From positions 1-21,347 of the IMG/VR virus record IMGVR_UViG_3300045136_000248: a stretch of 21,347 bases of DNA; one strand, written 5' to 3'. This DNA is from a virus. Under the pieces are notes generated by a model that worked only from the letters and a program-made list of their open reading frames with translations, had not been told where the DNA came from and did not search any database. The position numbers and the translations under genes were made by a program. Every line of letters begins with the position of its first letter. The stretch's first letter is position 1. This document shows positions 4,704-21,347 of this stretch, piece after piece.

Positions 4704-4796
4704 GTAGTAAGTGTAGTAAGTATAATTTAATATTTTTATAAAAAACATTGCTGATAAATTTGGCTGTATATGAAAACTACTTACTACACTTACTAC
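4704..4796. repeat. 19-bp perfect inverted repeat
   Basis: The left arm at 4704-4722 (GTAGTAAGTGTAGTAAGTA) is exactly complementary to the right arm at 4778-4796, with a 55-nt AT-rich centre. Each arm contains two GTAGTAAG units joined by T or sharing context. As DNA it is a large symmetric binding platform; as RNA it would be a long stem. Confidence 0.8.
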
Positions 4797-4850
4797 TTAC
4801 TACATTTAGCATAAAAATTAAGAATATAAGCAAATTTCAAAACATTTAGT

Positions 4851-4889
4851 GTAGTAAGTAAATTTTTATATAATAAAATTACTTACTAC
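4851..4889. repeat. hairpin just before the first late-type gene
   Basis: 4851-4861 (GTAGTAAGTAA) pairs perfectly with 4879-4889, and after a one-base bulge the stem continues with A/T pairs. The loop is AT-rich. It lies about 12 nt upstream of the GGAGG ribosome binding site of the GPZ-like gene, so it could also act in mRNA. Confidence 0.6.
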
Positions 4890-4910
4890 CCACTAACTAC
4901 CGGAGGTAAT

Positions 4911-5444
4911 ATGGGGCAAATAAAAATTGAGAAAAGCATTAAAGATGCAATTAAAAAACAAATAAATATTGCAGAAAAAGCAAAAGTGATGGCAATTAAC
5001 AAAGCAATTAAATCCACACGGACTGCGATATCCAAATTTATCCGGGCAAAATATAAAATAAAGAAAAGTGACTTGGATAAATTTTTGCGGATTATAGCAG
5101 CTTCATACGCAAATCCCAAAGGTAAACTCGAAATAACAGACAAGCCAATTCCGCTTATTAAATTTAATGCTAAACAAACAAGTAAGGGTGTTACTTATTC
5201 TTATTATGTAGGGGGTGGGAGAAAACATATCAAATCTGCGTTCATACAAACAATTAAAAAAACAAATTATACAGGCGTGTTCAAAAGAAAGGGCAAAGAA
5301 AAATATCCAATAGAACATTTATACGGTCCATCGGTTTGGGTTATTACATCAGAAGAAGCAAGAAATGAAATAAGAAGAATATTCGAAGAAAGATATGCCA
5401 TCGAATACGACCGGGCATTGAAATATTTGAAAGGTACTTCCTGA
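4911..5444 (+). CDS. Prophage minor tail protein Z (GPZ)-like
   Basis: The strong GGAGGTAAT Shine-Dalgarno fixes the start. The 177-aa protein shows the GPZ family layout: a lysine-rich N-terminal helix, then AINKAIKSTRTAISKFIRAK, a KSDLDKF element, the core PIPLIKFNAKQTSKGVTYSY, and the C-terminal HIKSAFIQTI ... TGVFKRKG ... PIEHLYGPSVW. In lambda the Z protein acts late in tail completion and is needed for infectivity. Here it is encoded before the terminase genes and far from the other tail genes (13685 onward), an unusual place. It is the first gene after the GTAGTAAG region, so it would lead the late transcript. The family match is by eye. Confidence 0.8.
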   Translation: MGQIKIEKSIKDAIKKQINIAEKAKVMAINKAIKSTRTAISKFIRAKYKIKKSDLDKFLRIIAASYANPKGKLEITDKPIPLIKFNAKQTSKGVTYSYYVGGGRKHIKSAFIQTIKKTNYTGVFKRKGKEKYPIEHLYGPSVWVITSEEARNEIRRIFEERYAIEYDRALKYLKGTS

Positions 5445-5515: not shown

Positions 5516-6004
5516 ATGAGTTTAATAGTAGATGCTGAGAGTTTAGCTAAATATTTTTACCGTGACATACGGACAATACAACATTGGGCTCAATATGAAG
5601 GAATGCCCAAAGAGGAAAGAGGAAAATACAATATTGTCCTATGTGCAAGGTGGAGAATTGGTAAACTTGAAGAAAAAATAAAAGAACTCGAAAAGGGTGA
5701 TGCTACTCTTTACCAGTTGCAACAAGAATATCAAAAATTAAGGAATGAGGAAAAGGCGCTTGACCTTGAGGTAAAGAAAAGGAATTTGTTAGACAGAGAA
5801 ACAGTAGAGATAACAAACACTGTTTTTTTAAAGTTAATTGTGCAAAATATAAAGGCATTGGGACCGAGATTAAATAAAAAACTAACCGGCGATGCAAATA
5901 CGCTTGCAATTATAAATGCTGAAATTGATGAATTATTAAAAACGATAAGTCAAACTCCGTTGAGCTATTTTGAAGAACAGATACCGGGTGAAGATGAAGA
6001 GTAA
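5516..6004 (+). CDS. terminase small subunit, Nu1-like
   Basis: The 162-aa product has an N-terminal MerR/Nu1-type winged helix-turn-helix (residues 3-35: VDAESLAKYFYRDIRTIQHW then AQYEGMP), the part that recognises cos DNA in lambda gpNu1. A coiled-coil-like helix (LEEKIKELEK to EEKALDLEVKKRN) follows, then a C-terminal helical domain for contact with the large subunit. It sits directly before the large terminase and overlaps it by about 11 nt. AAGG lies about 11 nt before the ATG. It should bind the packaging site and hand DNA to the large subunit. Confidence 0.85.
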   Translation: MSLIVDAESLAKYFYRDIRTIQHWAQYEGMPKEERGKYNIVLCARWRIGKLEEKIKELEKGDATLYQLQQEYQKLRNEEKALDLEVKKRNLLDRETVEITNTVFLKLIVQNIKALGPRLNKKLTGDANTLAIINAEIDELLKTISQTPLSYFEEQIPGEDEE

Positions 6005-7949
6005 TATCAAAGAGTTGATTAAGGTAATGTTGCGGTGTTTTGAACCGCCGGAACGGATTACTGTAACCGAATGTGCAGAAAAATATAGAATATTACCTAC
6101 ATCCAATAGAGAAGGGGGTGCTTATAGAGTATCCAGGACACCGTTTGCAAAGGAAATAATGGATTCTTTCAATGATCCGAATGTGGAAGAGATAACGATA
6201 ATGGGCAGTGCACAGTGGGCAAAGACTACAATAATGGAAAATATTATTGCTTACATAATCAAAGTGCAGCCATCGAATATATTATTGGTGTTGCCGACTT
6301 TGGATTTTGCGAGAAGATTTTCTAAAACGAGGTTGGAGCCAATGATTGAGGATTCTCCGGAGATTAAAAAGTTAGTGTCGAAAAAGAAAAGCCGGGATTC
6401 TGATAATACTATTTTGTCTAAGTCTTTTGTTGGGGGAACTATTGCAATGGTCGGGGCTAATTCTCCAGGGGGATTAAGAGGATTTACTGCACCATACATT
6501 TTTGCAGACGATATTGATGCTATTGAAATTGGTTCTACAAAAGAAGGTGATTTTATTGCAAGGGCGGAAAGAGCAGCCGAAACTTACGAGGGAATAAGAA
6601 AGTTTTTCCGCGCATCTACTCCATCTATTGCTGGGGGAAGTAGGATTGAAAAATACTATAACAAAGGCACGATGGAGGAATGGCATATTCCGTGTCCTAA
6701 ATGCGAAGAATATCAATTGTTTGAAATATCTCAGTTAAAGTGGGAATATGAAACCGATGCTTTTGGGAAAAGGATTCCGAATTCTGATAAGCCGGAAACG
6801 GCAGTAATTATTTGTAAATATTGTTCGCACGAGATAAATGAGGGTGAAAGGCAGATGATTATTCCTAAAGGAAAGTGGGTTGCAAAGTTTCCTGATAGGA
6901 TTTATCACAGGTCTTTTTTCTTTAACCGGTTTACGAGTCCCTTTTCTTCTCTCAGGAATATTTGTAAGGCATATATTGAGGCGCAGGGGGAGGAAGAGAA
7001 GATGCAGGCATTTACAAATTTGTATTTGGGATTGCCTTACAAACCTGATACTGTTGTTGAATTACTTGAAGATGAGATTTTACAAAAGGTAGAGCAGTAT
7101 CTTGATCCATCAAAGCCGTATGAATGTCCATCTTCTGTGCTGATGTTGATTGCAAGTGCAGATGTGCAGGATGACCGTATTGAAGCGCAGGTTTGGGGCT
7201 ATGGAATGAATTACGAGTGCTGGATACTGAATAAGTTTAAGTTGCCAGGAGATCCAAGATTACCGAAACATATAAACGGATCGCCGTGGGCGCAATTAGA
7301 GAAGGTTTTGCTGAATACCTGGAAAAGAACTGATGGGGTTGAGTTGAAGATAGTTGCTGCCGGAATAGATAGTAGTTTTTTGTCCGATGAGGTTTATGCT
7401 TTTTGCAGGGGGTTTGAATTTACCAGGAATTGGTGGGCGATAAAAGGGGCAAGAAATCCGTTTGCTGAGATAATACCACAAAAATATAGTGTAATTGAAG
7501 AGAAGAGAAGTAAGTATTTACGGCTGGGAGTTAATTTGGAAAAGCAAAGTATGTTTAGTCTCCTTAAGATGCCGAGACCTGAAAATTATGATGGTGAACC
7601 ATTGCCTAAGTATATTCATCTTGATGAGAGCATTTGCGATCTTGAGTTTGTTGAACAGTTGACAAGTGAGCACGGTGTTAAACGGACTTCCGGGAGTGTG
7701 GAATATATTGTGTATGTTAAGAAGAAAAGTGGTTTAAGGAATGAGGCACTTGATCTTATGGTATATAACCGGATTATGGCTAAGATACAGAATCCTAATT
7801 GGCAGAAGTTGAAGGAAAATATTGATGCAAGGAAAAACAAGAATGTTGAGAATGAAAAATCTCTGCCGGAGCCACAGACATTATTAAATAAACCGACTAT
7901 GAAAGTGACTAAAGTAAAACCTTTTATTAACAAAATAACTAATTGGTGA
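5994..7949 (+). CDS. terminase large subunit, GpA family
   Basis: I chose the ATG at 5994 (651 aa, GGGTG 4 nt upstream); a TTG at 5970 in frame is possible but has no ribosome binding site. The protein matches the phage terminase GpA family. It has an ATPase with SAQWAKTT at 72-79 in the Q-x-GKT position, Walker B at ADDIDA (171-176), a zinc-ribbon pair CPKC (234-237) and CKYC (274-277), and a C-terminal nuclease beginning IASADVQDDRIEAQVWGYG (D390) and ending with GIDSS and NEALDLMVYNRI. It cuts concatemers and pumps DNA into proheads through the portal. The P-loop glycine of QxGKT is alanine here, a variation to note. Genes on both sides abut. Confidence 0.93.
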   Translation: MKSNIKELIKVMLRCFEPPERITVTECAEKYRILPTSNREGGAYRVSRTPFAKEIMDSFNDPNVEEITIMGSAQWAKTTIMENIIAYIIKVQPSNILLVLPTLDFARRFSKTRLEPMIEDSPEIKKLVSKKKSRDSDNTILSKSFVGGTIAMVGANSPGGLRGFTAPYIFADDIDAIEIGSTKEGDFIARAERAAETYEGIRKFFRASTPSIAGGSRIEKYYNKGTMEEWHIPCPKCEEYQLFEISQLKWEYETDAFGKRIPNSDKPETAVIICKYCSHEINEGERQMIIPKGKWVAKFPDRIYHRSFFFNRFTSPFSSLRNICKAYIEAQGEEEKMQAFTNLYLGLPYKPDTVVELLEDEILQKVEQYLDPSKPYECPSSVLMLIASADVQDDRIEAQVWGYGMNYECWILNKFKLPGDPRLPKHINGSPWAQLEKVLLNTWKRTDGVELKIVAAGIDSSFLSDEVYAFCRGFEFTRNWWAIKGARNPFAEIIPQKYSVIEEKRSKYLRLGVNLEKQSMFSLLKMPRPENYDGEPLPKYIHLDESICDLEFVEQLTSEHGVKRTSGSVEYIVYVKKKSGLRNEALDLMVYNRIMAKIQNPNWQKLKENIDARKNKNVENEKSLPEPQTLLNKPTMKVTKVKPFINKITNW

Positions 7950-8878: not shown

Positions 8879-8968
8879 AAACAGATATAGTGCCCAATGT
8901 GGGTACATAATGGGTATTAAATACGCTTGAGTTGATTGAATATTTTTGTCCCAGAAAATGGGATGAAA

Positions 8969-9511
8969 ATGTTTGCAATCGAAAAAGCATCACTTAATAA
9001 ACAACTAATTGCCGGGACAAGATGGGAAATTCTTGAGCCGGAGGATGTTTATTCTGCTTCTGAGTATAAACTTATCTATTTATTCCGATCAATTAATGAC
9101 ACTTCTCCAAAATCTTTTGAAACTTCTTCGAATAACGGGCATTTGCTTGCTTTAACTCCTGAACAAACGGCACAGTTAGCAGGGGGGTATTATAATGTAA
9201 ATGTTTTTGCAAAGTCTTTAACCGATAATGAGATTATTTATCCTTATGCTTCTGTTGTTGTATATGTTCAAGGTGATATAAATACTTCTGCTGATACGAG
9301 ATCATTTTATCAGAAAATGGTTGAGAAGATAGAAACGGTTTTGTTGTCGCTTGCTGAAAAAACTATGGATTCTGTTTCTGTTGAGGGAATGACTTATAAT
9401 TATAAAGATATTGAGAAACTGGAACGGCTTGCAGATTATTATAGATATAAAGCAGGGATGAATGGTAATCAGGGGGGACGAAGAATATTGATAAGGTTTA
9501 CTAATGAATAA
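8969..9511 (+). CDS. head-tail connector-like protein with N-terminal Ig-like domain
   Basis: The start is uncertain: a TTG at 8936 and ATGs at 8963 and 8969 are in frame; I prefer 8969 because GGGA lies 5 nt upstream. The N-terminal part is a beta-sandwich-like domain of the phage Ig/BppU kind (LIAGTRWEILEPEDVYSASE ... GGYYNVNVFAKS ... VVVYVQGDI). The C-terminal 75 residues resemble a gpW-type adaptor: a long helix (FYQKMVEKIETVLLSLAEKT), then a YNYKDIEKLERLADYYRYKAG segment like the yxl..L..LRd.y pattern. Position directly before the portal, with 8 nt overlap, fits a small connector. The exact role is not certain. Confidence 0.65.
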   Translation: MFAIEKASLNKQLIAGTRWEILEPEDVYSASEYKLIYLFRSINDTSPKSFETSSNNGHLLALTPEQTAQLAGGYYNVNVFAKSLTDNEIIYPYASVVVYVQGDINTSADTRSFYQKMVEKIETVLLSLAEKTMDSVSVEGMTYNYKDIEKLERLADYYRYKAGMNGNQGGRRILIRFTNE

Positions 9512-11066
9512 ATTGTTTTATAAAATATTATTTAGTATTCCTTTTGTTAGAAGTTTTGCTGAGAAGCAGTATCAGAAAATTTATTTAAGATATTTTCAGG
9601 GTGCTACTTCTAACAGGTTGACGATGGATTGGTTGACTGATTTGGAGTCAATCAATAAGGCATTGAAGGGTGAGTTTAGAACACTGCTTTCGAGATCGAG
9701 GGATTTGGCGGTTAATAATGATTATATAAAAGGTTATTTGAAAAGATGTGTAACGAATATTGCTGGTCCTGGTGGATTTAAGTTGCAAAACCGTGCTGTA
9801 AAAAACAATGAGCCGGATGATCAGTTAAATAGTTTAGTTGAGGAAGCGTGGGATGAATGGTGCAAGAAAGAGTATTGTGATTTCAAACAGGAAAATAGTT
9901 TTGCTGAATTACAAAAGATAATGGTAAAGCAGTGGAAGCGTGATGGAAATATTCTGATTAAGAAACATTACGGAAGTAATATTAATAAATTCAGTTTTGC
10001 AATAGAGCTTCTGAATATTGAGCAATTGGATATTGCTTATAATAGTACTTTGAGTAATGGCAATGTAGTGATAATGGGGGTTGAGTTTAATGAATCCAAC
10101 CGGAGAGTAGCATATTGGATTAAAGCAAACAAACCGGAATATGAATTAAGTTTTGCTTATATGTATGATTATTCGAGGCAATCTGTAAGAATACCGGCGG
10201 AAGAGATAATACATTTCTTTTCTAAGGATTTTCCAAATCAGGTAGTTGGTTATCCTGCTATTGCGACATCTTTATTGACAATGCACGATTTGCAAGGTTA
10301 TGAAAAGGCAGCGATAATAAATGCAAGGGGTGGCGCAAGTAAGATGGGATTTATTCAGACTCAGCAGGGTGTGCCTTTAACTAAGTCTTATGAAGGTGAT
10401 GCTGTTGATGAACAAGGAAATGTAATCAGATCATTTTCTTATGGTGAGATTGAGCAATTGCCCCCTGGTTTAGAGTTTAAAGGTTGGGATCCAAGTTATC
10501 CGAATGGGGAATATGGCAGTTTTGTTAAAGAGATATTGAGAAAAGCAGCAACGGGTCTGGGGGTTGCTTATGCAAATTGGGTTGGGAATTTAGAGGCAGT
10601 TAATTTCAGTTCGATGAGAAGCGGTTTGCTTGATGAGAGAGATAATTGGAAAGATGAGCAGGGAAGTTTTGTTGATGGGGTTTTATTAGAAATCTTTGCT
10701 GAGTTTTTGAAATATGGAATGCTGGGGGGTGCGATAAATGTATCTTTTGCGAATTATGAGAGAGCCAATAAGCCGGAGTTTATTGGTAGAAGGTGGGATT
10801 GGGTTGATCCGAGAGCGGATGTTGAGGCAAAAGTAAATGCGGTTAATAACAACTTAACAACATTGACTGATGTAATGGCTGAGATGGGTGTTGATTTTGA
10901 GGATTATGTAAGAAGAAGAAAGATGGAGTTGGTTAAGTTAAAAGAGATTAAGCAATTGGAGAGTGAATTAGGAATTGGAAAAGATAAAAAGCAGGTGAAT
11001 AATGCAGTGGACTCAGGAAGTAATGGTAATGGAAAACATTTACTAAAACATTTGGAGATGATATGA
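9504..11066 (+). CDS. portal protein, lambda family
   Basis: The 520-aa product matches lambda-family (gpB-like) portal proteins. The N-terminal hallmark is LLSRSRDLAVNNDYIKGYLK followed by RCVTNIAGPGGFKLQ (about residues 60-95). Later come the conserved IELLNIEQLD, PAEEIIHFF, GYPAIATSLLTMHDLQGYEK (the conserved P-x-L..L..Y module) and LEAVNFSSMRSGLLDERDNW near the C-terminus, followed by RRWDWVDPRADVEAKV. Twelve copies should form the ring at the capsid vertex through which the terminase pumps DNA. Lambda B is 533 aa, so length fits. ATGA overlap couples it to the capsid gene. Confidence 0.93.
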   Translation: MNKLFYKILFSIPFVRSFAEKQYQKIYLRYFQGATSNRLTMDWLTDLESINKALKGEFRTLLSRSRDLAVNNDYIKGYLKRCVTNIAGPGGFKLQNRAVKNNEPDDQLNSLVEEAWDEWCKKEYCDFKQENSFAELQKIMVKQWKRDGNILIKKHYGSNINKFSFAIELLNIEQLDIAYNSTLSNGNVVIMGVEFNESNRRVAYWIKANKPEYELSFAYMYDYSRQSVRIPAEEIIHFFSKDFPNQVVGYPAIATSLLTMHDLQGYEKAAIINARGGASKMGFIQTQQGVPLTKSYEGDAVDEQGNVIRSFSYGEIEQLPPGLEFKGWDPSYPNGEYGSFVKEILRKAATGLGVAYANWVGNLEAVNFSSMRSGLLDERDNWKDEQGSFVDGVLLEIFAEFLKYGMLGGAINVSFANYERANKPEFIGRRWDWVDPRADVEAKVNAVNNNLTTLTDVMAEMGVDFEDYVRRRKMELVKLKEIKQLESELGIGKDKKQVNNAVDSGSNGNGKHLLKHLEMI

Positions 11067-13051
11067 ATAAGTTAAAGAAAAAAAATCCAATTTACAAATA
11101 TTATTACAGTAGAGAAGCACCAATTCAATCTTTGAATGAAGAAACCAGGACAGTCACTGGAGTGCTTACGACTGAATTACCTGCAATTGTAATGGATTGG
11201 TATAACTGGCGGATGATTAGAGAGATCCTTCTTATTGATGGTATAGAAGTACCAGAGAGAATCCCTTTGCTTGATACACATTCCAGGTTTACCGTATCAG
11301 ATATTAAAGGTTCGGTTATTAATGCAAGAATAGAAGTTGATAAGGTATTAGGAAAAATAATTGTTGCTGATTTTGTATTTTCTTCTACCGCTGAGAAGGA
11401 ATTCCAATTAGTTAAAGAGGGTCATTTATCGGCAACATCAATCGGTTATCGGGTATTTAAAGATGAATCTGTTGAAATAAAACCCGGTCAGAAGAAGGAG
11501 GTGAATGGAAAAATTTATGAAAATAATTATCCGGATGAACTTCCTTTGGTTATAAGATTAAGATCGAAGGTTTTTGAGGACAGTTTGGTGCCGATTGGTG
11601 CCGATGAACTTGCGAAGTTCAGAGAAATGATTGATTTGGATGTGGAAGAGAACGAAGAGGATGAAGGTATAAGATATAAGGAAATAAGGGAAGAGGAGAT
11701 AGTGAATGAGGGAATAAGGAATAAGGGTATAAGTGAAGGTGAGGTTGGGGGAGATGAGAATAAGACAAGAGATAAGCCGGAAGAAGTTGAAACCAAAAAT
11801 GAAACTAAAACAAACATTAAAATAACATTAAATAAGGAGACTAAAATGGATGGAATAACCGAAGAATTGAGAGTAGCTGCAATAAATAAATTAGCAGAAA
11901 CTTTCGACGGGAAGGTTCAGGGGGAAAATTTAAAAGAAACTGCTCAGTTGTATATACACGGTGGCAAGAGCGAGCGTGAATTTGCAGATTACATTATGGA
12001 GCGCCAGAAAAGCACTGCATCATTTGGAAAACCTGTTTTTGGTTTGACTGAAAAGGAGCTCAAGGAATATAATATTGTTAATGGTTTGCGTGCTATGTAT
12101 AAGGGTCAGAACTCTTTTGAGAAAGAAGTTTCTGATGAATATATAAAGAGAAGCGGTGCAAAGATTGAAGGAATAGCAGTTCCTTATGATATTCTGCTTC
12201 CCAAGTTTTTCCAGAGAGATTTGCAGGCAACAGGTACAGGTTCCGGTGCTGAATTGGTTGGTACAGAGCATCTTGGATCAATGTTTATTGATTACCTATA
12301 TAGTAAACTCGTGCTTGATAATATTACATTGCTTCCAAACAGACAGCAAGATGTAAGAATTCCCGTATTAACTGGCAGTGCTGGATATGGATGGGCGGCA
12401 AGTGAAAACGCTACATTGGCTGAGGGCAGTCCTTCAACAGGTGTAAAGGTTGCAAGTCCCAAAAGAGGTGGAAGATTTATTGATATTTCGAAGCAGTTAC
12501 TTATTCAAAGTGATCCACCTGCTGAAAGAGTATTTATTAATGATCTTGTACAAAGCATTGCAGTAGGTATTCAGAATGCAGTTTTGAATGGTAGTGGTGC
12601 GTCAGGACAGCCAACCGGATTAAAGAATACATCTGGTTTACCGACTACAATTGATCTGACAACACCATCCTGGGCAAAATTTGTTCAGTTTGAAACAAGT
12701 GTTGATGATAATTTCAGTGATGACCGGTCAATGTACTTTGTTACACGCAGAGCACACAGAGGTGTGTTAAAATCAACTCCGAAAGTATCCGGTCAGCCAG
12801 TATTTATTTGTGAAAATAATCAGGTAAATGGTTACGAGATGCGTACATCTAATATTGTAACAGCCGGAGATGTTTTCTTTGGTGACTGGACACAGATAAT
12901 TGTGCCGATGTGGGGTGCATTGGATGTTATAATAGATCCATATACACAGGCAACAAGTGGATTGGTTAGAGTAACTGCGGATCAGTTATTGGATGTTATT
13001 GTAAGATATCCGCAGGCATTTGCATATGGTAATAATATGCCTTCTTCATAA
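11063..13051 (+). CDS. prohead protease-major capsid protein fusion
   Basis: One 662-aa frame holds two normally separate proteins. Residues 1-190 are an S78-type prohead protease: PLLDTHSR with H73, HLSATSIGYRV with S126, and the closing SLVPIGADELAKF. Residues 262-662 are an HK97-fold major capsid protein: a helical scaffold-like delta region (DGITEELRVAAINKLAETF), then PYDILLPKFFQRDLQATGTG, GWAASENATLAEGSP, RGGRFIDISKQLLIQ, VLNGSGASGQPTGL and FGDWTQIIVPMWGALDV. The linker (about 202-260) is acidic, low-complexity and encoded by the purine repeat described below. GGAG lies before the ATG, which overlaps the portal stop. Cleavage after assembly would free the capsid domain. An internal ribosome site may also make capsid protein alone. 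Confidence 0.9.
   Translation: MNKLKKKNPIYKYYYSREAPIQSLNEETRTVTGVLTTELPAIVMDWYNWRMIREILLIDGIEVPERIPLLDTHSRFTVSDIKGSVINARIEVDKVLGKIIVADFVFSSTAEKEFQLVKEGHLSATSIGYRVFKDESVEIKPGQKKEVNGKIYENNYPDELPLVIRLRSKVFEDSLVPIGADELAKFREMIDLDVEENEEDEGIRYKEIREEEIVNEGIRNKGISEGEVGGDENKTRDKPEEVETKNETKTNIKITLNKETKMDGITEELRVAAINKLAETFDGKVQGENLKETAQLYIHGGKSEREFADYIMERQKSTASFGKPVFGLTEKELKEYNIVNGLRAMYKGQNSFEKEVSDEYIKRSGAKIEGIAVPYDILLPKFFQRDLQATGTGSGAELVGTEHLGSMFIDYLYSKLVLDNITLLPNRQQDVRIPVLTGSAGYGWAASENATLAEGSPSTGVKVASPKRGGRFIDISKQLLIQSDPPAERVFINDLVQSIAVGIQNAVLNGSGASGQPTGLKNTSGLPTTIDLTTPSWAKFVQFETSVDDNFSDDRSMYFVTRRAHRGVLKSTPKVSGQPVFICENNQVNGYEMRTSNIVTAGDVFFGDWTQIIVPMWGALDVIIDPYTQATSGLVRVTADQLLDVIVRYPQAFAYGNNMPSS
11666..11776 (+). 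repeat. purine-rich 7-8 bp repeat inside the protease-capsid linker
   Basis: Units GGTATAA, GATATAA, GGAAATAA, GGGAATAA, GGAATAA and GGGTATAA, with degenerate spacers, encode the linker (EGIRYKEIREEEIVNEGIRN). The same units fill gaps at 13108 and 18889. The frame used is one of few that avoids the TAA in every unit. Confidence 0.75.
11835..11848 (+). promoter_or_regulatory. internal ribosome binding site and ATG for the capsid domain
   Basis: AGGAG (11835-11839) lies 6 nt before an in-frame ATG (11846, residue M262) at the exact start of the capsid delta-like region. Translation from here would give a 401-aa capsid protein ending at 13051, a normal size for the family, in addition to the fusion. 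Confidence 0.65.
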
Positions 13052-13070: not shown

Positions 13071-13106
13071 GGTGCGATGTATTCCCCCTGCATCGCACCG
13101 GTTTTT
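13071..13106 (+). terminator. rho-independent terminator after the capsid gene
   Basis: GGTGCGATG (13071-13079) pairs perfectly with CATCGCACC (13091-13099) around an 11-nt loop, followed by GG and five T. The stem is GC-rich against an AT-rich background. Nineteen nt after the capsid stop, it would raise capsid mRNA relative to downstream tail genes by partial termination. Confidence 0.8.
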
Positions 13107-13107
13107 A

Positions 13108-13156
13108 GGTATAAGGGAATAAGGAAATAAGGTAAAAGGTATAAGGTATAAGGGGG
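13108..13156 (+). repeat. purine-rich 7-8 bp repeat array between capsid and next gene
   Basis: A run of GGTATAA, GGGAATAA, GGAAATAA, GGTAAAA, GGTATAA, GGTATAA and GGGGG follows the terminator. It has no ORF. It ends ten nt before the GGAGG ribosome binding site of the 13177 gene. Confidence 0.75.
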
Positions 13157-18362: not shown

Positions 18363-18895
18363 TATTCGGGATTCAAAATCCAAAATTTGAAGAAATAAAC
18401 GGAGCGGAGACAGTAGATCTGCTTCATTCGAATATGGAGCCGGATTATATACAGCCGAATGAGGTTGAATTTGAGTCAATTGTAAATGGTAACAGAAGTT
18501 TTTTGAAGAAATACAATCCACACGCAGAGTTTTCGGTGACAATTCATTTGTTTAAGTATGCTAATCCGGGAAGTATATTTTGGAAAATATATGGTTATTT
18601 GGGGAAGGATGTATGGTTTTATCCGCATAAAGATAATTCGCTGAAATTAAAATGCCATATAGTTGATGTGAAGTTATTTTATTTAGAGCAACCATTTCAT
18701 TATGATGCTTGCACGGTGGTATTCAGGACGGTTGAGCCGGTGCAGTATCTTGAGGAAACATTTACGAGTATTCTTGTTAATAAGAGTGGTGTACCGATTA
18801 AGGATAAAGATGGAAATACTATTTACATAAAGAAGGGACCGGAGATATTCAGGGAACAGCCGGGTGGGGGAGGAGGAATAAATGATGAGGTATAA
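18359..18895 (+). CDS. tail protein, Dit-like position, 178 aa
   Basis: GAGGTGAAGCA precedes an ATG that overlaps the upstream stop (ATGA). The product is beta-rich (PNEVEFESIVNGNRSFLKKY, AEFSVTIHLFKYANP, LKLKCHIVDVKLFYLEQPFH, YDACTVVFRTVEPVQYLEET). It looks like a small distal tail protein but I cannot name its family. The C-terminus is a glycine run (QPGGGGGINDEV) encoded by purine-rich DNA. The stop codon is the TAA of the first GGTATAA unit of the following repeat array, so the repeat may have changed the end of the protein. Confidence 0.65.
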   Translation: MIFGIQNPKFEEINGAETVDLLHSNMEPDYIQPNEVEFESIVNGNRSFLKKYNPHAEFSVTIHLFKYANPGSIFWKIYGYLGKDVWFYPHKDNSLKLKCHIVDVKLFYLEQPFHYDACTVVFRTVEPVQYLEETFTSILVNKSGVPIKDKDGNTIYIKKGPEIFREQPGGGGGINDEV

Positions 18896-19018
18896 GGGAA
18901 TTAGGAAATTAGGTATAAGGAAATAAGGTATAAGGGAATAAGGGGGAAGGGGAATAAGGGAATAAGGGGGAGTGAGGTATAAGGTATAAGGTATAAGGAA
19001 ATAAGGGAATAAGGAGAT
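18889..19018 (+). repeat. large purine-rich 7-8 bp repeat array before the fibre genes
   Basis: About seventeen units run in tandem: GGTATAA, GGGAATTA, GGAAATTA, GGTATAA, GGAAATAA, GGTATAA, GGGAATAA, then GGGGG variants, GGTATAA three times, GGAAATAA, GGGAATAA, GGAGATAA. The strand is almost free of C. The first unit supplies the stop of the upstream gene. The last (GGAGATAA) is the Shine-Dalgarno of the downstream gene, 5-6 nt before its ATG. No ORF on the + strand. Confidence 0.85.
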
Positions 19019-19021
19019 AAA

Positions 19022-20122
19022 ATGAAAAAAATAATTTTAATAGTAATTGCAATAATAATTCAACTAAGTGCACAGACGAATATAACTGTGCCTTCTTTGA
19101 ATTTAAAATCTGTGCTTGATTCAACGGATTTGTTTTTGATTTCACAGACTGATACAAATTATTACAAAGTATCTTTTGATAATCTTGTTGATCAGATTGA
19201 AGATTCATTGGGGAAAAGTAATATAAATTATATTAACAAGAGTCAGACAATAACGGGTTGGAAAACATTTGCAGGGGGTTTGACTTCTACAAACACAACA
19301 AATCTGAATGGACCGCTGACTTTAGGGAATACTACAACTGTAAACGGAGCAATAACATTTAATTCCAGACCAAGTTTTTATGGTGCATTGTTTAATAGTG
19401 CGAGTTATGGAACGGTTAGGTTTGAAGATAGTACATATTTCTATAATGGATTCAGTACATTTTATAATAATCCGGTTGTGTTTGACGGTAACAGTAATAT
19501 AACTGTTTATGGTACTCAGGATATGATTGCTGGTTCAAGATTGAAGATTGCATTGAGATCATATCCGCAGACATACAGAGCGCTTGGATATGTTGGGAGC
19601 GATGGGGGTTCTTATCTTGCATTTGATTATGGTTCAACGGGCGGACAGACAGATACTATTCCTGGATTCAGATATTTAAGAAGTAATTATGCTGGATTGA
19701 GTTCAAATAATACTTTTAATGGTAATAATACATTTTACGGAACAAATACATACTGGAATAATGTAACATTTGGTGAGCCGGTTGTATTTAGCAAAAGAAT
19801 TACATTGAATAAGGAGTTGATAAGCAAAGTAGATTCAGTTGCTTATGGTGCGGAGGATGTAACTATTGATATAACGACAAAGTCGCCGTATGTAGTAATC
19901 TACGGTTACCAGGATGCACCAAATGTAACATCAATCAGTGGTTATCACGGGCAGGTTGTAACATTTTTAATCCACCCATCAACTTATACTACTGTGAATT
20001 TTACAAATAACAGTATAATAAAATTAACCGGAAGTACGAATGTTCAATTAACACCAGGAAGTACAATCACATTTATGAATTTCCGGGACAAATGGTATGA
20101 AATATCAAGATCGGTGAAATGA
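19022..20122 (+). CDS. fibre-like protein with Sec signal peptide, 366 aa
   Basis: AAGGAG (end of the repeat array) lies 5 nt before the ATG. Residues 1-18 (MKKIILIVIAIIIQLSAQ) are a clear signal peptide: two lysines, a hydrophobic core and an SAQ cleavage site. The mature part is rich in N, T, S, G and aromatic strands (TSTNTTNLNGPLTLGNTTTV, NGAITFNSRPSFYG, NTFNGNNTFYGTNTYWNNVT), as in beta-helical or trimeric phage fibres. The C-terminus (NSIIKLTGSTNVQLTPGSTI, TFMNFRDKWYEIS) resembles fibre tip domains. It probably makes contact with the host cell. A Sec signal on a virion fibre is unusual, so it could instead be a secreted protein. Confidence 0.7.
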   Translation: MKKIILIVIAIIIQLSAQTNITVPSLNLKSVLDSTDLFLISQTDTNYYKVSFDNLVDQIEDSLGKSNINYINKSQTITGWKTFAGGLTSTNTTNLNGPLTLGNTTTVNGAITFNSRPSFYGALFNSASYGTVRFEDSTYFYNGFSTFYNNPVVFDGNSNITVYGTQDMIAGSRLKIALRSYPQTYRALGYVGSDGGSYLAFDYGSTGGQTDTIPGFRYLRSNYAGLSSNNTFNGNNTFYGTNTYWNNVTFGEPVVFSKRITLNKELISKVDSVAYGAEDVTIDITTKSPYVVIYGYQDAPNVTSISGYHGQVVTFLIHPSTYTTVNFTNNSIIKLTGSTNVQLTPGSTITFMNFRDKWYEISRSVK

Positions 20123-20809: not shown

Positions 20810-21347
20810 ATGAAAAAAATAATTTTATTTATCTTGTTTTTGGCTGTGAATTTATCTGCACAGAATTACATAATCAGACAGGATTCATTAAGAGCGAGTG
20901 AAAGCAGGTTAAAAGGTGCGATTAAAGACTCGCTTGATGCGAACACACGGGGGTGGATAAATTCTCAGCAGGCTGGTATTCTTATAAAAGATACATTAGA
21001 CGCAAATAACAGGGGGTTTATAAACTCTCAGCAAGCAGGTAATTTAGTTAAGGATAGTTTAAATGCTAATACGAGGGGGTTTATAAATTCTAATCAAGCG
21101 AAGCAGATAATGACAGATACTCTTAACGCAAATACAAGGGGATTCACGACATCTTCGCAAGTAAGAACGATGATTAGGGATAGTTTACAGGCGAATTCAC
21201 GAGGTTGGATAAATTCTATACAAGCACGGCAAATAGTTGGAGATAGTTTGAATGCTAATTCACGGAATTGGCAAAGCAAAACTCAGGTTGAGAATATTGT
21301 AAAAGATACATCGACAGTTTTAAATGCTAAAATTGCTACAAAAGCAG
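20810..21347 (+). CDS. repeat-rich fibre-like protein with Sec signal peptide (partial, 3' end outside)
   Basis: GGAG lies 6 nt before the ATG. The frame is open for 179 codons and runs off the window. Residues 1-18 (MKKIILFILFLAVNLSAQ) are a signal peptide very like that of the 19022 gene. From residue 40 come six tandem 21-residue repeats (40-60, 61-81, 82-102, 103-123, 124-144, 145-165) of the form D(S/T)L-x-AN-x-RG(W/F)INSxQAxxI. The last is divergent. Each repeat probably adds a fixed rise to a trimeric helical shaft, so copy number may set fibre length. No homologous function can be named from the N-terminal part alone. Confidence 0.75.
   Translation, partial: MKKIILFILFLAVNLSAQNYIIRQDSLRASESRLKGAIKDSLDANTRGWINSQQAGILIKDTLDANNRGFINSQQAGNLVKDSLNANTRGFINSNQAKQIMTDTLNANTRGFTTSSQVRTMIRDSLQANSRGWINSIQARQIVGDSLNANSRNWQSKTQVENIVKDTSTVLNAKIATKA
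20927..21304 (+). repeat. six tandem 63-bp coding repeats
   Basis: Units begin at 20927, 20990, 21053, 21116, 21179 and 21242, each encoding 21 residues. They keep the protein pattern but differ in codon choice, so they are old repeats under selection on the protein and not a recent slippage expansion. Confidence 0.8.

Follow-up and report, generated by a model that had tools for sequence, protein, structure and literature searches.

How phages whose prohead protease is fused to the major capsid protein avoid placing hundreds of proteases in each prohead is a question to which we found no answer in the open-access literature. It is raised here by a single frame in a virus record of 21,347 bases, which was analysed whole and is called the window in the following. 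We propose, with a probability of about 0.8, that this frame belongs to an old and widespread protease-linker-delta-capsid family, in which one gene would give rise to the full-length fusion and, from a stronger internal site, to a nested free capsid protein. A conserved nested start would offer a simple answer to the protease overload in proheads. The features of the locus are as follows (SD, Shine-Dalgarno sequence):

5970-7949: gpA-type terminase, head module
8936-9511: head-tail joining protein, head module
9504-11066: lambda-type portal, head module, directly before the 662-aa frame
11063..13051, + strand: fused prohead protease/major capsid protein gene, 662 aa; its own start has the SD TTTGGAGATGAT-ATG, -6.4 kcal/mol
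11102..11629, + strand: S78-type protease domain, about residues 14-189, with conserved H73, S126 and E172
11630..11845, + strand: acidic/lysine-rich disordered linker, model pLDDT about 32-43 across residues 182-259
11835..11839, + strand: internal SD AGGAG, followed by a 6-nt spacer and the ATG at 11846 (residue 262)
11846..13051, + strand: nested gene for a predicted free major capsid protein (delta domain and HK97 fold), 401 aa, whose start ATG is residue 262 of the fusion
11846..12037, + strand: delta (scaffold) domain, helical, about residues 262-325, from the model, with its boundary set by alignment
12038..13048, + strand: HK97-fold capsid part, from profile and structure matches
13071..13107, + strand: hairpin and T run right behind the capsid stop, a likely intrinsic terminator (z -3.6)

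The 662-aa frame is a real fusion of an S78-type protease, a disordered linker and a delta/HK97-fold capsid part. It is uninterrupted along its full length and lies in a head module with the order terminase, head-tail joining protein, portal and 662-aa frame, after which comes the strong hairpin with its T run. In the protease part, the candidate catalytic residues H73 and S126 are nearly invariant and invariant, respectively, among 53 to 58 relatives, and E172 is invariant too; this part scores 13.9 bits against Pfam Peptidase_S78, for which the gathering cut-off is 21, and within the same family the relatives L014, L108 and L049 exceed that cut-off with 28.7-30.1 bits. For the capsid part, Pfam Phage_capsid gives a match above threshold (E 2e-24), and a match to phrog_617 spans the whole length (residues 21-658 on 18-623 of 626, E 1.6e-74); the score against NF045541, 79.5, is below the curated cut-off of 525 bits, so the protein is not assigned to NF045541 proper. 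In the AlphaFold2 model, residues 182-259 form a disordered linker, the first helix follows at residues 259-281, and ATG262 stands at the start of the modelled delta helix. The capsid model matches the solved capsids 8gta (R4C; Z 18.1 over 239 residues) and 8fqk (HK97; Z 17.6), and these whole-model structure searches bear on the capsid part alone, the stand-alone protease model having a pLDDT of 39. The initial annotation had read the frame as an S78-type protease (H73, S126) joined to an HK97-fold capsid protein, which the open frame, the conserved residues and the Phage_capsid and phrog_617 matches bear out; the AGGAG-6-ATG that it placed at residue 262 is exact.

With an SD energy of -9.3, ATG262 is the strongest of the 12 in-frame ATGs of this gene, ahead of the start of the frame itself; the other ten reach -3.9 or weaker, and the mRNA around ATG262 is predicted to be unstructured. 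Since 14% of synonymous-codon shuffles of the window gene also reach -9.3, the SD of the window is by itself not decisive, and it is the comparison with relatives that decides. For this comparison, 103 non-redundant fusions were used, and the site tested was the first ATG after the protease domain. The mean SD energy at this ATG is -5.7 kcal/mol, against -2.4 at 1290 other internal ATGs (p 4e-25) and against -4.0 in synonymous-codon shuffles of the 103 genes (set means -4.4 to -3.5). The distance from a GGAG/GAGG/AGGA core to the first ATG is 6, 7 or 8 nt at 21, 41 and 23% of the loci, respectively, against a background of 0.1-0.9% at the other internal ATGs. A strict core at 5-10 nt is found at 71 of the 103 loci and at 2.7% of the other internal ATGs, a count that omits the window, the linker of which is longer than the limit used. 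When in-frame SD-ATGs are binned along the gene, 34 and 27 fall in the two bins right after the protease and 1-12 in each of the others. The first-ATG and spacing tests replaced a best-of-several-ATGs test over the whole junction, in which the signal is diluted (59% vs 24% in the control).

The nature of this signal is seen from its codon phase and its variation. The SD cores are spread over all three codon frames (21/30/28), and within clusters the encoded residues vary (KE, EV, KV) and AAGGAG, GAGGT or AAGGTG is kept. Conserved protein motifs can mimic SD-ATG sites, as is shown by a frame +1 spike of SD-ATGs inside the protease at 26 loci; the linker carries no conserved protein motif of this mimicking kind. 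The conserved SD-ATG is best explained by selection that acts on the nucleotides and keeps a site of initiation. Of 15 phages examined, 10 have an internal SD stronger than that of the fusion itself and one shows a tie; about 17 of the 103 loci are without a clear SD under the search used. In the cyanophages L005 (S-CBS3) and L007 (S-LBS1), the linker ATG is kept (MDPSTIDMEAV and MEPTIDIEAV) and no Shine-Dalgarno precedes it. Taken together, the comparison of about 100 other phage lineages supports a family-wide conservation of the internal start, and with it the suggestion of the initial annotation that a free capsid protein may be made beside the fusion.

We propose the following working for such a gene. 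Ribosomes starting at 11063 would make the 662-aa protease-capsid fusion, and those starting at 11846, behind the stronger and unstructured SD, would make the 401-aa delta-capsid protein. The free capsid protein is expected in excess over the fusion, because the internal SD is the stronger of the two and its surroundings are unstructured. Both products may then co-assemble through the capsid part, so that the number of protease domains carried into the prohead by the fusion would be limited; by analogy with the established HK97 pathway, these would cleave the linker and the delta domain off all subunits. A single gene would thus probably be enough for such phages to fix the ratio of protease to shell protein. 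The R4C gene is likewise fused, with GGAGG-ATG at residue 189, and the deposited mature R4C chain begins at residue 362 of 629; the N-terminal half thus appears to be lost from either product on maturation. For this reason, the two products are indistinguishable in mature virions, and N-terminal sequencing of the virion capsid protein, which had been suggested as a check, would be non-discriminating.

Three other accounts of the internal site have to be weighed against initiation. It could be a chance product, as purine-rich linker DNA easily yields SD-like sequence and 14% of the shuffles of the window gene reach the same energy; the site would then be meaningless in the window. However, it is the best ATG of the gene and it stands at the homologous place where the relatives keep an SD-ATG, so that chance is quite improbable. 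A site at the domain boundary might also pause ribosomes for folding with no initiation taking place, and its location there fits. An ATG would be superfluous for pausing, but the core keeps a fixed distance of 6-8 nt to one, and we reject this account on the SD-ATG spacing as very improbable. More serious is a pure polyprotein, in which only the full-length fusion is made, the protease excises itself and the SD-like motif is incidental or left over. Such self-processing of the linker is conceivable for a prohead protease, and everything before residue 362 is missing from the mature R4C chain, as a polyprotein would have it. Nevertheless, a sharp spacing peak at one ATG, over 103 diverged lineages and all codon frames, is unexpected for an inactive site, and a polyprotein would load one protease per capsid subunit, that is 415 in R4C by the count of the major capsid protein (PMC10276861). 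We consider it unlikely, and prefer a fusion made together with a nested free capsid protein.

The remaining account, put forward in the initial annotation, has an intergenic repeat expanding into the gap between two independent genes and joining them in one frame, with the internal start as the former start of the capsid gene. In its favour, the linker does contain the repeat, and stand-alone capsid genes with separate proteases do exist. However, 160 of the 172 compared records, the window among them, have protease and capsid in one frame; the fusion is present in relatives that share about 24-40% identity, and split genes together with this protease and portal type were found in none of the 172. 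Among the non-fused remainder, seven start close to the end of a contig, and those that are genuinely separate have different protease types; the few non-fused records use other proteases and portals. Five candidates for a split version (L076, L079, L080, L089 and L013) were rejected as separate-gene modules with other proteases, and L182 and L183 as separate capsid genes behind ClpP-like protease genes. In the latter two, from the order of G374 in the phylum of L044, a ClpP-like protease is paired with a similar capsid instead of the S78 fusion. Fused relatives are found in phages infecting enterobacteria, vibrios, roseobacters and cyanobacteria, and also in records from diverse bacterial groups, which include metagenome bins, taken as binned. 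Close relatives of the window were found neither in IMG/VR, by capsid, portal or terminase, nor among phages by megablast. With 160 of 172 records fused and none in which this protease and capsid are split, the fusion is, as far as these comparisons reach, older than the repeat and belongs to an established family (phrog_617, phrog_4523, NF045541). The profile libraries and the same count mean that the claim of a repeat-made fusion fails; the linkers listed for relatives lack the repeat as well, which refutes this origin by the test that the initial annotation itself proposed, and we give it hardly any weight.

The repeat itself is present in the linker and in two intergenic arrays:

11660..11735, + strand: repeat-derived linker stretch (AATAAGG / GGTATAAGG), by similarity to the arrays of the window
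13108..13155, + strand: intergenic AATAAGG/GGTATAAGG array, by repeat comparison
18889..19020, + strand: larger intergenic array of the same AATAAGG/GGTATAAGG repeat, the last unit of which is the SD of the gene at 19022

Linker bases 11660-11735 align to the array at 18892-19021 with a score of 63, against at most 56 in 1000 codon shuffles and at most 28 in 129 other coding windows. The derivation of the linker from intergenic repeat units, as claimed earlier, therefore stands for this stretch, about one-third of the linker, and falls for the remainder, which is merely lysine- and glutamate-rich. From the end of the protease match to the internal start, the linker of the window has 71 codons, against about 20 in most relatives, and no repeat of the AATAAGG/GGTATAAGG type was found in the linkers listed for relatives. 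A search of IMG/VR for the repeat gave two contigs, and in L176, the one examined closely, the array lies outside any such fusion gene. Of 395 bacterial genomes sampled from the phylum of L044, four (L178-L181) also contain arrays of the GGTATAAGG type, at several sites in two of the four and on both strands, and the reversed pattern gave none; the protease-capsid fusion is absent from all four, and the capsid relatives in the order of one of the four are the separate genes L182 and L183 described above. Most simply, the repeat was inserted in frame at a later time, in this phage, into a disordered linker that already existed, which it lengthened while the internal start was kept; the linker repeat would then be late and incidental, and would have had no part in creating the fusion. 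The array before 19022 ends in GGAATAAGGAGATAAA-ATG, its last unit being the ribosome-binding site of that gene, and a sequence nearly identical to GGAATAAGGAGATAAA precedes the internal capsid start. It is conceivable, though doubtful, that nested starts serve S78 protease-capsid fusions in general as a means of setting dosage and that, in this phage, an SD-carrying repeat (last unit GGAATAAGGAGATAAAATG before 19022, almost the same as AAATAAGGAGACTAAAATG at the capsid start) entered the linker and might have provided or restored the SD, repeat insertion thus tuning the protease-to-capsid ratio. Other repeats of the window include short direct repeats of ACTACTTACTACACTT at 4776-4808 and inverted copies of a TACTTACTAC-like sequence at about 4760-4900, both intergenic before the gene at 4911, and a 63-nt repeat in 2.4 copies at 20949-21099 near the record end, probably within a tail-fibre-like gene that is truncated where the contig stops.

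In the literature, protease-capsid fusions are mentioned in passing in two papers, in the relevant passages of which an internal start is not mentioned (PMC8601537, PMC11080557). The structure paper on R4C gives 415 copies of the product of the gene, and the word protease is absent from its main text (PMC10276861). No earlier description of an internal start of the fusion was found in the open-access literature, subscription journals being outside the scope of the search. A conserved nested start also implies that many proteins of 600-900 aa annotated as 'major capsid proteins' probably correspond to two products.

Compared with known systems, the window protein shares its domain order and whole-length similarity with the protease/major-capsid fusion family (phrog_617, phrog_4523, NCBIfam NF045541; Arya, VP882, R4C, RcCronus, S-CBS3), many members of which also have its neighbours, a large terminase, a head-tail joining protein and a lambda-type portal; it differs in a linker that is about 50 residues longer and partly repeat-derived, and in an NF045541 score far under the cut-off. 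With HK97 gp4 protease and gp5 capsid, it has in common the S78-type protease, the delta domain and the HK97 fold; however, gp4 and gp5 are two separate genes, and here there is one fused gene. Lambda C/Nu3 has a nested in-frame internal start within the prohead-protease gene, as is predicted from sequence here; the nested product of lambda is the scaffold, and the capsid protein E is separate, whereas here it would be the capsid protein itself with its delta domain. In herpesvirus UL26/UL26.5, the protease is fused to the assembly protein and an abundant nested product lacks the protease. The same nesting logic, with one protease-bearing and one protease-free product, is predicted for the window, but the herpesvirus product is a scaffold made from a separate internal transcript, and a predicted translation start would yield a capsid protein here. 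Nested in-frame starts in protease genes and protease-capsid fusions are both already known; in the gene described here, the nested product would be the capsid protein itself.
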